This document shows positions 42,945-64,000 of a stretch of 64,000 nucleotides of DNA, in pieces. The stretch spans positions 43,416,719-43,480,718 of the forward strand of contig OX424560.1 of NCBI GenBank assembly GCA_949152475.1, given 5' to 3'. The position numbers were made by a program, and so were the translations under genes. The stretch is from Terebella lapidaria. Its lineage: Eukaryota; Annelida; Polychaeta; Terebellida; Terebellidae. The notes under the pieces are model-generated. The model had not been told where the DNA came from and ran no database searches. It saw nothing but the letters and a program-made list of their open reading frames with translations. Every line of letters begins with the position of its first letter. Within the stretch, counting starts at the first letter, position 1.

Positions 42945-43530
42945 GGAATCAATTGTGGACATATAGGAAATGATATATGCTGAATATTCTTGTGACCTTG
43001 AATTTGACCTTTAAGCTCATTTTCAAGGTCAGAGCACAAAATGGCCAATATCTCGCTTATTATTGACTTTATAGTTTAGGAATCAATTGTGGACATATAG
43101 GAAGTGATATATATGCTGAATATATGCTGAATGACCTTTGACCTCATTTTCAAGGTCAGAGCACAAAAATGGCTAATAACTTGCTTATTATCGACTTTAC
43201 AACTTAGAAATCTATTGTGACCATATAGGAAATGATATATGAATATTCTGATCACCTTGAATTTGACGTTTGACCTCATTTTCAAGGTCAGAGCACAAAA
43301 TCACTTATATCTCGCTTATTATCCACTTACAGCTTAGGAATCAATTGCGGACATATAGGAAATGATATATGTCGAATACTGTGATGACCTTGAAATTGAC
43401 CTTTGACCTAATTTTCAAGGTCAAAGCACAAAATGGTTATTATCTGGCTTATTATCGACTTTACAGCTTAGAAATCAAATGTGGCCATATAGGAAATGAT
43501 ATATGCTGAATATATTTGTAACCTTGAAGT
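42945..43530. repeat. Five tandem units of 127-134 bp
   Basis: GGAATCAATTGTGGACATAT or near variants recur at about 42945, 43079, 43206, 43336 and 43470. Each is followed by GGAAATGATATATG, TGACCTTGAA and TTTTCAAGGTCAGAGCACAA. An inverted, diverged copy of the same family is at 60540-60990. Confidence 0.8.
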
Positions 43531-43741
43531 TACCAGACCATCTGTCCGATCACCTATTGGCTAGCCGTTAAACTACAGGTCCCTTGGGCCTATGTTTATA
43601 TATTTCAATAATTCAAGAGAAATAAACTAGTAATCGCTATTGACAATATTGAAGTAGCATTTTGTTCCTGTATCCCCTGAAATATATTCATATGCAAATT
43701 TGCATACGGAATATATTATATAGACTAATTATTCTCTTATG

Positions 43742-45728
43742 AGTAGTAAGGACCCGGATTTGAGTTTTTTTTGGAAAAACCCATGGTTTTTGCTATGGTT
43801 ATATGATGTCACTTCCGGTTTTGGTTTCGGTGGTTATATGACGTCACTTCCGGTTTCTGTTTAGGGTTCGTCATAACGTACCCGTAAATGTTTGAAAAAT
43901 CATAACGTTCCCATAAATGTTTGAAAAATCATAACGTACCCATGAATGTCTGGAATATCATAACGCACCCATAAAAGTTTGGAAAATCATAACGGTACCA
44001 TAAATGTTTGGAAAATCATAACGTTCCCATAAATGTTTGAAAAATCATAACGTACCCATAAATGTCTGAAAAATCATAACGTACCCATTTATGTCTGGAA
44101 AATCTTAACGTACCCATGATTGTCTGAAAAATCATAATGTTCCCAGAAATGTTTGGAAAATCATAACGTACCCATAAATGTTTGGAAAATCATGTATTAA
44201 TTTTTGCAATATTTTTAAACATTTTTTCAAATAAACTTTCCTTTTTATTCAAATTATAAGCATCATATTAAAACGAGTCTATACCATTTTCTCAGGTTTT
44301 TTATTTCTCAGCACACATCTACTATATATACAATTTCTACACAATGGCCTATACATGGACTCCTTTTTCTGTATTTTAAAAAAAATTTATATTTTTTTGG
44401 TTCGCTAAACTACGCATGCGCAATATACAACTGAAGAGTGAACATGGATACCTGCTCTATATGTCTGAAGAAATTTTCATGATCCCATGATGTTAGGCGA
44501 CATATGCTTACTGTACACAATACAACTAAGCTGCAGCAAGTGATGACACTACCGCCACTGCAACCATTGCCGCCGCCACAGGCGTTGCCGCCGCCGCCAC
44601 AGCCATTGCCGCCGCCGCCACAGCCTCAGCCACAGCCACAGCCTCAGCCTCAGCCTCAGCCTCAGCCACAGCCTCAGCCTCAGCCTTGGCAGCCACAGCC
44701 TCAGCCTCAGCAGCCTCAGCCTTGGCAGCCTCCGCCGCCACAGCCTCAGCCACAGCCACAGCCTCACCCTCAGCCACAGCCTCAGCCTCAGCCTCAGCCA
44801 CAGCCTCAGCCATTGCCGCCGCCACAGCCTCAGCCTCAGCCACAGCCATTGCCGCCGCCGCCGCCGCAGCCATTGCCGCCACAGCAGCCATTGCCGCCGC
44901 CGCCACAGCCTCAGCCACAGCCTCAGCCTCAGCCTCAGCCACAGCCGCCGCCACAGCCTTGGCCACAGCCATTGCTGCCGCCGCCGCCACAGCCTCAGCC
45001 ACAGCCTCAGCCACAGCCACAGAAAAATTGCACCATATGGATTATCCATCGCAGCCTCAGCCTCAGCCTCAGGCTTGGCACCCTCAGCCACAGCCTCAGC
45101 CTCAGTCTCAGTCTCAGCCTCAGCCACAGCCTCAGCCTTGGCAGCCACAGCCTTGGCAGCCACAGCCTCAGCCTCAGCCACAGCCTCAGCCTTGGCAGCC
45201 TCAGCCTCAGGCTTGGCAGCCTCAGCCTCAGCAGCCACAGCCTCAGCCTTGGCAGCCTCAGGCTTGGCAGCCTCAGCCTCAGGCTCAGGCTTGGCAGCCA
45301 CAGCCTCAGCCTCAGCCTCAGGCTCAGCCAAAGCCTTGGCAGCCTCAGCCTCAGCCTCATCCTCATCCTCATCCTCAGCCACAGCCTCAGCCTCAGCCAC
45401 AGCCACAGGCTTGGCAGCCTCATCCTCAGCCACAGCAGCAAAAGCACTGGTCCGTCAATTATATGGATCCCCTGGTATTTCAACACCCCTTCACCCTGAA
45501 CGTGTCAGGACCTACTGGGTGTGGGAAGACGGCTTGGGTAAAATCCCTCTTGGAGTCCGGTCAAATATTCCCCGCCCCTACCAGGATCATATGGCTGTAC
45601 AAGAGATGGCAACCCCTCTACGACATCGTAAGGTCTAGTGTGCAGCCTCCCGTGCAGTTCATACAGGGGATACCTATCAATCTGGATTCCGATGACTTCG
45701 TCTCACCTACGGACAATAACGTCATCGT
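43742..45728 (+). repeat. Left inverted arm of the fold-back element
   Basis: Contains, from outside in: the terminal motif, eleven 29-bp repeats, an AT-rich spacer, the ATPase gene start, a long CAGCCT-rich tract (about 44560-45440) and the first part of the ATPase domain. It stops at GTCATCGT, the exact point where inverted identity with 46232 begins. The plus-strand open frame 44504-45499 and its neighbours in other frames reflect the CAGCCT tract. Confidence 0.85.
43872..44190 (+). repeat. Eleven 29-bp subterminal repeats, left arm
   Basis: The unit is CATAACGTACCCATAAATGT followed by TTGGAAAAT. Eleven head-to-tail copies occupy exactly 319 bases, starting 130 bases from the element end. 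Confidence 0.88.
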
Positions 45729-47076
45729 GTGCGGGACATCTCAGCAAGTGCATTTGTAGCTCATAGTTATTTGAAAACAGGGCTCCACAGCTGAAACATT
45801 TCATTGTCTTGTCCGACTGCCATTCTAGAGATTTTGTATTACTTTGAGATGCTGCGGGTTGGCCCGAGGCTGGACTCTCGGATGACTGACTGTGAAGCGG
45901 GTTCGGTCGCAGGCGTTTATTTTCCTGCGTTGTCGGTTTCAGGTCCACGACAAGATGTCCGTAGGGCTCAGAGGTTGCGCTGTCGAACTCTTGAAGAAAC
46001 TTTTGGGGGCAGGCGGGATACATTTGCCTGGCCAGGGTCATGATTTGCTGCTGATCAATAGGGTTTCTGAACAGAGTCAGATAATGACAGTTTCTCCTCT
46101 GAGTCGGGTCCTTGCTGTAGTAGAGGTTCTGGTTCAAGCAAATGACGCTCAGGTTCCGATGGTGGCTCCCTTCCGTGAACAAGTCCGTGATTCTCGGATC
46201 CTTGGCGGAAATAGACATGAGGTCGTCCAGGACGATGACGTTATTGTCCGTAGGTGAGACGAAGTCATCGGAATCCAGATTGATAGGTATCCCCTGTATG
46301 AACTGCACGGGAGGCTGCACACTAGACCTTACGATGTCGTAGAGGGGTTGCCATCTCTTGTACAGCCATATGATCCTGGTAGGGGCGGGGAATATTTGAC
46401 CGGACTCCAAGAGGGATTTTACCCAAGCCGTCTTCCCACACCCAGTAGGTCCTGACACGTTCAGGGTGAAGGGGTGTTGAAATACCAGGGGATCCATATA
46501 ATTGACGGACCAGTGCTTTTGCTGCTGTGGCTGAGGATGAGGCTGCCAAGCCTGTGGCTGTGGCTGAGGCTGAGGCTGTGGCTGAGGATGAGGATGAGGC
46601 TGAGGCTGAGGCTGAGGCTGCCAAGGCTTTGGCTGAGGCTGAGGCTGAGGCTGAGGCTGTGGCTGCCAAGCCTGAGCCTGAGGCTGAGGCTGCCAAGCCT
46701 GAGGCTGAGGCTGCCAAGGCTGAGGCTGTGGCTGAGGCTGAGGCTGAGGCTGAGGCTGTGGCGGCGGCAATGGCTGAGGCTGTGGCTGAGGCTGAGGCTG
46801 AGGCTGAGGCTGTGGCTGAGGCTGAGGCTGAGGCTGAGGCTGTGGCTGTGGCTGAGGCTGTGGCGGCGGAGGCTGCCAAGGCTGAGGCTGTGGCTGCCAA
46901 GGCTGAGGCTGAGGCTGTGGCTGAGGCTGAGGCTGAGGCTGTGGCTGTGGCTGAGGCTGTGGCGGCGGCGGCAATGGCTGTGGCGGCGGCGGCAACGCCT
47001 GTGGCGGCGGCAATGGTTGCAGTGGCGGTAGTGTCATCACTTGCTGCAGCTTAGTTGTATTGTGTACAGTAAGCAT
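45703..47076 (-). CDS. Polinton-type packaging ATPase with P/Q-rich N-terminus
   Basis: A 457-residue open frame on the minus strand. Residues 1 to about 190 are almost only P and Q, encoded by CAGCCT-type hexamers. The ATPase domain follows: HPFTLNVSGPTGCGKTAWVK (Walker A GPTGCGKT), RIIWLYKRWQPLYD, VIVLDDLMSISAKD (Walker B), LFTEGSHHRNLSVICLNQNL and LTLFRNPIDQQQIMTLARQM. This is the wording of the poxvirus A32-like/FtsK-HerA ATPase of Polintons, which packages DNA in related viruses. A C2H2-like finger follows near the C-terminus (CFSCGALFSNNYELQMHLLRC). The last few residues of the frame are read from the opposite arm, so the original end of the gene is not preserved as such. Confidence 0.8.
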   Translation of the reverse strand: MLTVHNTTKLQQVMTLPPLQPLPPPQALPPPPQPLPPPPQPQPQPQPQPQPQPQPQPQPWQPQPQPWQPPPPQPQPQPQPQPQPQPQPQPQPQPQPQPQPQPLPPPQPQPQPQPQPQPQPWQPQPQAWQPQPQAQAWQPQPQPQPQPQPKPWQPQPQPQPHPHPQPQPQPQPQPQAWQPHPQPQQQKHWSVNYMDPLVFQHPFTLNVSGPTGCGKTAWVKSLLESGQIFPAPTRIIWLYKRWQPLYDIVRSSVQPPVQFIQGIPINLDSDDFVSPTDNNVIVLDDLMSISAKDPRITDLFTEGSHHRNLSVICLNQNLYYSKDPTQRRNCHYLTLFRNPIDQQQIMTLARQMYPACPQKFLQEFDSATSEPYGHLVVDLKPTTQENKRLRPNPLHSQSSESPASGQPAASQSNTKSLEWQSDKTMKCFSCGALFSNNYELQMHLLRCPAHDDVIVRR

Positions 47077-47838
47077 ATGTCGCCTAACATCATGGGCTCA
47101 TGAAAATTTCTTCAGACATATAGAGCAGGTATCCATGTTCACTCTTCAGTTGTATATTGCGCATGCGTAGTTTAGCGAACCAAAAAAATATAAATTTTTT
47201 TTAAAATACAGAAAAAGGAGTCCATGTATAGGCCATTGTGTAGAAATTGTATATATAGTAGATGTGTGCTGAGAAATAAAAAACCTGAGAAAATGGTATA
47301 GACTCGTTTTAATATGATGCTTATAATTTGAATAAAAAGGAAAGTTTATTTGAATTTTTTTTTAAAAATATTGCAAAAATTAATACATGATTTTCCAAAC
47401 ATTTATGGGTACGTTATGATTTTCCAAACATTTCTGGGAACATTATGATTTTTCAGACAATCATGGGTACGTTAAGATTTTCCAGACATAAATGGGTACG
47501 TTATGATTTTTCAGACATTTATGGGTACGTTATGATTTTTCAAACATTTATGGGAACGTTATGATTTTCCAAACGTTTATGGTACCGTTATGATTTTCCA
47601 AACTTTTATGGGTGCGTTATGATATTCCAGACATTCATGGGTACGTTATGATTTTTCAAACATTTATGGGAACGTTATGATTTTTCAAACATTTACGGGT
47701 ACGTTATGACGAACCCTAAACAGAAACCGGAAGTGACGTCATATAACCACCGAAACCAAAACCGGAAGTGACATCATATAACCATAGCAAAAACCATGGG
47801 TTTTTCCAAAAAAAACTCAAATCCGGGTCCTTACTACT
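46232..47838 (-). repeat. Right inverted arm of the fold-back element
   Basis: Inverse of 43742-45728, shorter by about 380 bases, mostly in the CAGCCT tract. It carries the start and N-terminal half of the ATPase gene in the orientation continuous with the single-copy centre. Confidence 0.85.
47390..47708 (-). repeat. Eleven 29-bp subterminal repeats, right arm
   Basis: Exact-length (319 bases) mirror of the array at 43872-44190, again 130 bases from the element end. Unit-to-unit variants occur in the same order in both arms, so the array was copied as a block. Confidence 0.88.
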
Positions 47839-47844
47839 CTTATG

Positions 47845-61396: not shown

Positions 61397-64000
61397 TGCA
61401 GAAATTGTACAACAATTGCATGCAATGTTGGAAACCACTGGACAATACGCATCTAGGGTCATGGTTACGTTCAAGTAGGAGCGGATATGGTGCAGAAATT
61501 ACACAAAAATTGCATGTAATATTGGAAATTACTGGACAATACGCATCAAGGGTCATGGTTAGTTTAAGGAGGAGCGGATATGGTGCAGAAATTACACAAA
61601 AATTGCATGTAATATTGGAAATTACTGGACAATTCGCATCAAGGGTCATGGTTAGTTTAAGGAGGAGCGGATATGGTGCAGAAATTACACAAAAATTGCA
61701 TGTAATATTGGAAATTACTGGACAATTCGCATCAAGGGTCATGGTTAGTTTAAGGAGGAGCGGATATGGTGCAGAAATTACACAAAAATTGCATGTAATA
61801 TTGGAAATTACTGGACAATTCGCATCAAGGGTCATGGTTAGTTTAAGGAGGAGCGGATATGGTGCAGAAATTACACAAAAATTGCATGTAATATTGGAAA
61901 TTACTGGACAATACGCATCAAGGGTCATGGTTAGTTTAAGGAGGAGCGAATATGGTGCAGAAATTACACAAAAATTGCATGTAATATTGGAAATTACTGG
62001 ACAATACGCATCAAGGGTCATGGTTAGTTTAAGGAGGAGCGGATATGGTGCAGAAATTACACAAAAATTGCATGTAATATTGGAAATTACTGGACAATTC
62101 GCATCAAGGGTCATGGTTAGTTTAAGGAGGAGCGGATATGGTGCAGAAATTACACAAAAATTGCATGTAATATTGGAAATTACTGGACAATTCGCATCAA
62201 GGGTCATGGTTAGTTTAAGGAGGAGCGGATATGGTGCAGAAATTACACAAAAATTGCATGTAATATTGGAAATTACTGGACAATTCGCATCAAGGGTCAT
62301 GGTTAGTTTAAGGAGGAGCGGATATGGTGCAGAAATTACACAAAAATTGCATGTAATATTGGAAATTACTGGACAATTCGCATCAAGGGTCATGGTTAGT
62401 TTAAGGAGGAGCGGATATGGTGCAGAAATTACACAAAAATTGCATGTAATATTGGAAATTACTGGACAATTCGCATCAAGGGTCATGGTTAGTTTAAGGA
62501 GGAGCGGATATGGTGCAGAAATTACACAAAAATTGCATGTAATATTGGAAATTACTGGACAATTCGCATCAAGGGTCATGGTTAGTTTAAGGAGGAGCGG
62601 ATATGGTGCAGAAATTACACAAAAATTGCATGTAATATTGGAAATTACTGGACAATTCGCATCAAGGGTCATGGTTGGTTTATGGAGGAGCGGATATGGT
62701 GCAGAAATTACACAAAAATTGCATGTAATATTGGAAATTACTGGACAATTCGCATCAAGGGTCATGGTTGGTTTATGGAGGAGCGGATATGGTGCAGAAA
62801 TTACACAAAAATTGCATGTAATATTGGAAATTACTGGACAATTCGCATCAAGGGTCATGGTTAGTTTAAGGAGGAGCGGATATGGTGCAGAAATTACACA
62901 AAAATTGCATGTAATATTGGAAATTACTGGACAATTCGCATCAAGGGTCATGGTTAGTTTAAGGAGGAGCGGATATGGTGCAGAAATTACACAAAAATTG
63001 CATGTAATATTGGAAATTACTGGACAATTCGCATCAAGGGTCATGGTTAGTTTGAGGAGGAGCGGATATGGTGCAGAAATTACACAAAAATTGCATGTAA
63101 TATTGGAAATTACTGGACAATTCGCATCAAGGGTCATGGTTAGTTTAAGGAGGAGCGGATATGGTGCAGAAATTACACAAAAATTGCATGTAATATTGGA
63201 AATTACTGGACAATTCGCATCAAGGGTCATGGTTGGTTTATGGAGGAGCGGATATGATGCAGAAATTATACAAAAATTGCATGTAATATTGGAAATTACT
63301 GGACAATGCGCATCAAGGGTCATGGTTAGTTTAAGGAGGAGCGGATATGGTGCAGAAATTACACAAAAATTGCATGTAATATTGGAAATTACTGGACAAT
63401 TCGCATCAAGGGTCATGGTTGGTTTATGGAGGAGCGGATATGGTGCAGAAATTACACAAAAATTGCATGTAATATTGGAAATTACTGGACAATACGCATC
63501 AAGGGTCATGGTTAGTTTATGGAGGAGCGGATATGGTGCAGAAATTATACAAAAATTGCATGTAATATTGGAAATTACTGGACAATACGCATCAAGGGTC
63601 ATGGTTAGTTTATGGAGGAGCGGATATGGTGCAGAAATTACACAAAAATTGCATGTAATATTGGAAATTACTGGACAATTCGCATCAAGGGTCATGGTTA
63701 GTTTAAGGAGGAGCGGATATGGTGCAGAAATTACACAAAAATTGCATGTAATGTTAGAAATTACTGGACAATTCGCATCAAGGGTCATGGTTAGTTTATG
63801 GAGGAGCGGATATGATGCAGAAATTATACAAAAATTGCATGTAATATTGGAAATTACTGGACAATTCGCATCAAGGGTCATGGTTAGTTTATGGAGGAGC
63901 GGATATGGTGCAGAAATTATACAAAAATTGCATGTAATATTGGAAATTACTGGACAATACACACCTAGGGTCATGGTTAGTTTATGGAGGAGCGGATATG
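61397..64000. repeat. 93-bp satellite array, about 28 units, continues beyond the window
   Basis: GGAGGAGCGGATATGG recurs every 93 bases, head to tail, with high identity. The first unit (61397-61490) is the most diverged, as expected at an array edge. Variants (TTTAAGG or TTTATGG, ATTCGC or ATACGC, ACACAAA or ATACAAA) are scattered among units. Since 93 is 3 x 31 and one minus-strand frame lacks stops, an 874-residue frame of 31-residue repeats stays open (61350-63974). Most variants change the amino acid, so there is no sign of protein-level selection. Confidence 0.92.

Follow-up and report, generated by a model that had tools for sequence, protein, structure and literature searches.

Palindromic elements with Polinton-type ends and a packaging ATPase in the annelid Terebella lapidaria

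How could an element with the ends of a Polinton come to consist largely of two inverted copies of one terminal segment, keep a single recognisable gene and still move? The 64,000-nucleotide stretch of Terebella lapidaria DNA analysed here (the window) raises this question through a 4097-bp fold-back element at 43742–47838. A first-pass annotation had described it as a short, self-complementary Polinton derivative, still mobile and keeping only an ATPase, and relatives at many genomic sites together with intact 6-bp duplications bear this description out. We observed Polinton-type ends, a 6-bp duplication, arms that are inverted terminal segments, an asymmetric centre and a strand switch at microhomology, as well as relatives at many sites, arms that are alike within elements and an ATPase frame whose changes fall disproportionately on silent positions. 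On balance we consider it probable that the window copy descends from a Polinton and is a non-autonomous fold-back element, made by a strand switch during replication and mobilised in trans. The broader description, that these elements are non-autonomous Polinton derivatives of fold-back form with the ATPase as their sole recognised gene, largely holds.

The element is bounded by an exact 6-bp target-site duplication, CTTATG, at 43736–43741 and 47839–47844; it starts with AGTAGTAAGGACCCGG and finishes with CCGGGTCCTTACTACT, so that the AG...CT termini noted at the first pass are exactly in place as AGTAGT...ACTACT. An outer inverted pair (43738–44736 against 46844–47842, 999 nt, 96%) and an inner one (45195–45728 against 46232–46765, 534 nt, 95%, separated by 503 nt) belong to full arms of 1987 bp on the left (43742–45728) and 1607 bp on the right (46232–47838), which agrees with the previous estimate of about 2.0 and 1.6 kb round a 503-bp centre. 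The inverted arms thus make up most of the element, and chance can be excluded as the origin of the palindrome, since the arms are long and relatives occur elsewhere in the genome. Going inward, each arm opens with a terminal repeat of 129 bp, which is followed by some 11 copies of a 29-bp unit and by a 367-bp stretch; a Gln/Pro-coding repeat comes next, and ATPase sequence lies innermost. The arms are unequal because the Gln/Pro-coding repeat differs in length. The left terminal inverted repeat (43742–43870, plus strand, AGTAGTAAGGACC...) is identical to the right one (47710–47838, minus strand) over all 129 bp, and the 29-bp arrays follow at 43871–44193 (plus) and 47387–47709 (minus). Seven differences separate the arms over their outer 819 bp, and 5 of these cluster in one 6-bp patch. 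The subterminal stretch of the left arm (44194–44560, plus strand), which is 98–99% common to a second fold-back family, contains, by our reading, a C2H2-finger-like start that an in-frame stop splits from the long frame. It is followed on the same strand by the Gln/Pro-coding repeat stretch (44561–45459) and by a partial copy of the ATPase domain (45460–45728), which holds only the first 269 bp of that domain and is identical to the right copy. Up to 9 bp at 45720–45728 fit both parental strands and mark the strand-switch junction, beyond which a single-copy, 503-bp centre or loop (45729–46231) contains the bulk of the ATPase domain together with the second zinc finger.

The gene itself is a 457-residue frame on the minus strand (45703–47076) that starts near the right end of the element, reads inward and comprises a Gln/Pro-rich stretch, an A32-like packaging ATPase domain and a CxxC-type finger. 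It contains the motifs GPTGCGKT and VIVLDD, which we take to be a Walker A and a Walker B-like motif, and it matches Pox_A32 (PF04665) with 23.4 bits (cut-off 22.8, E 4.7e-5), relatives scoring 24.1 and 27.6 bits. The open ATPase frame with Walker A and B that had been described is therefore present, but it is truncated: about 220 C-terminal residues are gone relative to the 654- and 662-residue ATPase frames of element L009, because the strand switch falls just past the second zinc finger. The 11 other frames of the element (79–357 residues) are mostly repeat sequence; at E 0.01 Pfam matched none of them, except that the left copy gave weak ATPase-type matches at that E value, under the cut-off. 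Among the 12 frames of at least 79 residues in 43742–47838 there was no Pfam match to the polymerase PolB (PF03175), none to a retroviral-type integrase, a search confined to this element rather than genome-wide, and none to capsid proteins, which can be too diverged for Pfam. PHROGs yielded no match, two scans of viral contigs found no relatives, and a sequence search of the PDB returned only zinc fingers and unrelated weak matches.

Mavericks are reported to have (AGT)2...(ACT)2 ends and 6-bp target duplications (PMC8097293), most Polintons an A32/FtsK-like packaging ATPase (PMC4642659), and autonomous Polintons/Mavericks PolB, an integrase and terminal repeats (PMC12220804); many Polintons are reported to encode capsid proteins (PMC6431247), and Maverick particles not to have been observed so far (PMC8097293). 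The window element has the end motif, the 6-bp duplication and the packaging ATPase of this group and, with several copies and neither PolB nor integrase seen, the make-up of a non-autonomous derivative.

A search for further copies in the same genome, as the first-pass annotation had proposed, was positive. Each genome search scored its best candidates only. The ATPase protein gave 145 matches (the best 145 of 461 candidates) in at least 113 loci, and 88 of the 98 near-full matches (249 residues or more) are stop-free. Inverted ATPase pairs occur at 22 or more loci, 17 diverging and 5 converging; the window, where the left piece is not long enough to be listed there, adds another converging pair. 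The terminal repeat was found at 40 places (best 40 of 234 candidates) in 23 loci, 17 of which have both ends at element spacing, and a 371-bp subterminal stretch at 40 places (best 40 of 321 candidates) in 24 loci, inverted pairs accounting for 14; short extra matches (two for the terminal repeat, one for the subterminal stretch) were dropped before counting. A search with the Pox_A32 family found only two places and is therefore insensitive in this genome.

We then read 24 elements (the window copy, L009–L028 and L045–L047). Both ends could be located in 20 of them (all but L023, L025, L026 and L028), and an exact 6-bp duplication was present in 20/20. Sixteen of these 20 qualify as fold-backs, their arms reaching 600 bp or more, and L012 is the weakest case (613-bp arms in 2994 bp); L020, L021, L022 and L024 are not fold-backs, the arms of L024 being degenerate repeats only. 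A mobile family had been predicted to show up as multiple fold-back copies with matching ends and a 6-bp duplication each, and this is what the genome holds; relatives with the same ends at many sites rule out a one-off rearrangement. The exact window layout, with the ATPase reading inward and the same junction, was not seen in any other scored match of two of the genome searches. Fold-backs without the ATPase have also spread, of which L045 and L046 were read. L021 and L022, two 3.6-kb single-ATPase elements, have the same near flanks on C3 and C12, by segmental duplication or insertion into another repeat, and were counted as one insertion. Other arrangements include an 8.4-kb compound fold-back with two inverted L009-type centres and a third partial ATPase (L017:1393–9774), a reverse-transcriptase-like frame (RVT_1, below cut-off) inside a single-ATPase element (L020:2808–3479) and a partial ATPase repeated four times in tandem with a period of 1242 bp (C11:31706746–31710951).

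What the intact gene looks like can be seen in L021, L022 and the 7.4-kb L024, which carry one ATPase frame each (644 residues in L021, 691 in L024); the other frames of at least 110 residues between the ends of L021 and L024 run antisense to the ATPase or cross an end. The full protein begins with a C2H2-like finger and continues with the Gln/Pro-rich stretch; the ATPase follows, then another finger and a tail. Both fingers score below their Pfam cut-offs. The 5.5–6 kb fold-backs have two ATPases, both reading outward; in L009 the arms are about 350 bp apart, and this gap contains a frame of only some 64 codons as well as TATA-like sites, which we read as a promoter.

When the centres of the fold-backs are mapped on single-ATPase elements, the strand flips at each junction and the flanks lie on opposite strands. 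The mapped blocks overlap by 7–9 bp in the window, 2–8 bp in L047 and 1–3 bp in L019; for the L009 clade, inspection by eye gives an exact overlap of about 4 bp, and BLAST blocks overlap by 13–19 bp with mismatches. In all, six distinct junctions were found, four of them with 1–9 bp of microhomology. No terminal-repeat match lies at the centre of the 5.5–6 kb fold-backs, the window copy or L019, all such matches being at the ends (L027 has a different terminal repeat). L009, L010, L011, L013, L014, L016 and L018 have the same junction, each at its own insertion site, so these seven insertions go back to one founder. A single founder for all ATPase pairs of 5.5–8.4 kb was rejected, as the junction of L015 differs.

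Within this seven-element clade, the two arms of an element differ by 0.37% on average, compared with 1.01% between elements on either side. Arms evolving apart would group proximal with proximal and distal with distal; the within-element value thus means that the arms change together. In keeping with this, 18 columns are private to one element and present in both its arms, and none splits the two sides. The true arm pairing was equalled or beaten in 3 of 5040 pairings, the true one included; a first run with eight elements gave 4 of 40320, and the test was repeated without L015 because of its other junction. The compound L017 was excluded from both runs, and L012 and L019 are rows of the arm tree that stood outside the pairing tests. 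Support in that tree was mixed, with 3 of 15 inner branches starred, including the pairs of L016 and L018. At the termini, the outer 129 bp are identical between arms in five of eight elements and differ by 3.1% between elements. Arm likeness of this kind can be explained by replication of a strand annealed to itself and equally by gene conversion once the element is inserted.

Changes in the ATPase suggest, at the level of codons, that the protein has been under selection, modest within the fold-back clade. Variable columns fall on the three codon positions as 7/11/20 in that clade (p 0.03) and as 26/26/55 in five single-ATPase elements (p 0.0004). The ratio of nonsynonymous to synonymous substitution rates (dN/dS) between ATPase lineages is 0.19–0.43, a comparison entered only by frames open for more than 300 codons, which favours low values; close pairs range from 0.18 to 1.28 on few changes.

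The window copy is, going by its nearest relatives, a mosaic of two families. Its terminal repeat is nearest to those of L011 (100% over 127 bp) and L047 (99%) and its ATPase to the L009 clade (99–100%), whereas its 367-bp subterminal stretch is 98–99% like that of second-family fold-backs such as L038 and L039, against which the L009 clade offers only 68 bp at 84%. The second-family members L045 and L046 have other terminal repeats. The Gln/Pro repeats, present in both families, are the likely crossover site.

The first-pass annotation had also called for a full-length Polinton; none was found that combines these ends and this ATPase with PolB and integrase. One family search (PF03175) gave 123 PolB matches (best 91 of 115 candidates) in 62 loci, none of them within 40 kb of the 113 ATPase loci (nearest 41 kb on C7 and 52 kb on C12); elements with only the ATPase, as claimed for the window, therefore exist outside it as well. 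The closest approach to a parent is at C1:49820505, where a terminal repeat (93% identity across 85 bp) has a PolB locus 11.96 kb inside it; among the listed PolB loci and terminal repeats no other pair lies within 40 kb except around this locus, and the C1:49820505 end has the motif ATTCGAATGGACCAAT in common with L009. A second terminal repeat lies on the other side, 27 kb from that PolB locus, with a flanking six-mer that does not match. The repeats at C1:49781465 and C1:49820505, 39 kb apart, were rejected as the ends of one element, their flanking six-mers being different.

PolB loci can themselves be palindromic. PolB matches at C1:2934701 and C1:2946393 are in opposite orientation and identical at 760/760 bases, with the palindromic centre near 2940950. 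The palindrome (C1:2934701–2947193, L050–L052) spans at least about 12.5 kb with an identical PolB stretch in each arm, and no mirror match was present at ±10.9 kb (2930001–2930400 against 2951494–2951893). A second inverted PolB pair, at C16:15682452–15695094 (L056, L057), has arms identical at 100/100 positions over the stretch compared. The C16 and C1 palindromes are 91% alike (9–13% apart between loci) and have spacings of 11.8 and 11.7 kb, respectively. A further search gave six matches in all, of which the remaining two, on C279 and C8, were single.

Elsewhere in the window, a 113-nt direct repeat in four copies lies just left of the element (43000–43504), and GC (guanine–cytosine) skew is strong, 0.381, at the right end (62001–64000).

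In the origin that we favour, an intermediate of Polinton-type replication, which is protein-primed and strand-displacing, would fold back at a short inverted match, and the folded 3' end would copy its own strand to the terminus, giving the same end twice with the centre as a loop. The palindromic product would be replicated and integrated by enzymes of full Polintons acting in trans. Displaced palindrome strands could anneal to themselves, and in subsequent rounds one arm might serve as template for the other, which would keep the arms alike. In the window copy two families would in addition have been joined, probably via the Gln/Pro repeats. Several points weigh against this account. Protein priming and snap-back are steps that we infer; the junctions of L015 and L027 have no simple overlap, with some 30–90 bp unplaced; no helper with PolB, integrase and the same ends was among the elements read; and the link to C1:49820505 consists of 85 bp and a promoter-like motif found in L009 and not in that form in L028. 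Of 16 arms, 5 have their closest counterpart in another element, L015 has 3 mismatches between its ends over 129 bases, and gene conversion acting on inserted copies would likewise homogenise their arms. Pfam support for the window ATPase is barely above the cut-off, and an alignment-free fold prediction was unusable (predicted local distance difference test score, pLDDT, 34). Selection on the ATPase may have acted in autonomous parents that are lost, unassembled or unlisted, and all genome counts are partial.

How the palindromes arose has other conceivable answers. Inverted transposon pairs are common in general, and two nearby insertions in opposite orientation, or fold-back repair of a host break, could have made palindromes that were later moved by their outer ends. 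Host break repair leaves the same short overlaps as self-priming and fits the short microhomology equally well, so that the role of the polymerase is one we infer; the lack of terminal-repeat matches at the tested centres, the six different junctions with outer duplications intact in 20/20 and the palindromic form of two PolB loci nevertheless make this origin improbable. Missed-adapter or chimeric palindromic reads would give near-perfect palindromes, and the PolB arms are indeed identical where compared. Different duplications at many sites, distinct arm differences, common founder junctions and two PolB loci with near-equal spacing at 9% divergence rule out assembly error for practical purposes and leave such an artefact barely credible. 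For the one step of arm likeness, gene conversion on the host chromosome, known also from other long palindromes, may do all the work while the rest of the favoured account stands: it predicts the same pattern of arm identity and is compatible with arm differences of 0.1–0.8%. The identity of the terminal 129 bp in five of eight elements, despite 3.1% between them, speaks against it and does not decide, and we hold conversion as the sole cause to be possible but doubtful. Finally, the ATPase may be a passenger that lay near the parent's end and was kept by chance in young copies, having no function in the small elements, which is compatible with the same origin. Intact frames are expected for a while in young copies, and fold-backs without the ATPase have spread (L045 and L046; the 14 inverted pairs among the 24 subterminal-stretch loci). 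The third-position excess within the fold-back clade, the dN/dS values between ATPase-only lineages and the distance of the ATPase loci from any listed PolB locus point the other way, and we put the passenger's chances somewhat short of even.

A bolder proposal builds on strand-switch origin and trans-mobilisation and gives the gene a task. The elements could be palindromic Polinton satellites whose zinc-finger ATPase, kept under selection, recognises the subterminal repeats and directs the DNA into particles of a helper Polinton, the palindrome allowing snap-back replication and constant copying from arm to arm. It is the bold reading since fold-backs without the ATPase spread too, and we regard it as rather unlikely. 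If true, it would give animals an equivalent of the phage satellites that divert packaging, and would argue indirectly that Polintons of animals form particles. Without a packaging advantage there is little reason for selection on the ATPase; a packaging gene kept under selection in elements with almost no other gene would therefore make the question of Polinton virions testable. The palindromes with their similar arms may, in addition, be footprints of a Polinton replication intermediate.

We recognised no report of palindromic or fold-back Polintons in the open-licence PubMed Central (PMC) literature searched. The elements share with Polintons/Mavericks the end motif, the 6-bp duplications and the A32-like packaging ATPase, and differ from them in being 2–8 kb long and palindromic, with tandem-repeat subtermini and no PolB or integrase seen in those read. 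The fold-back transposons FB, Galileo and Tetris likewise have very long inverted arms, internal tandem repeats and a short centre; these are transposons of the cut-and-paste type, whereas the elements described here carry a viral packaging gene between ends of Polinton type and are flanked by 6-bp duplications. Symmetric (inverted-duplicate) defective adenovirus genomes, from a protein-primed relative, carry the same end at both termini on arms made by strand copy-back; they are known from virus grown in culture, while the present elements are integrated and have multiplied in a genome. Satellites of the phage-inducible chromosomal island (PICI) type offer the parallel of a small, dependent element that brings its own packaging factor, a factor that in T. 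lapidaria would be a packaging ATPase serving a putative helper and its putative particle.

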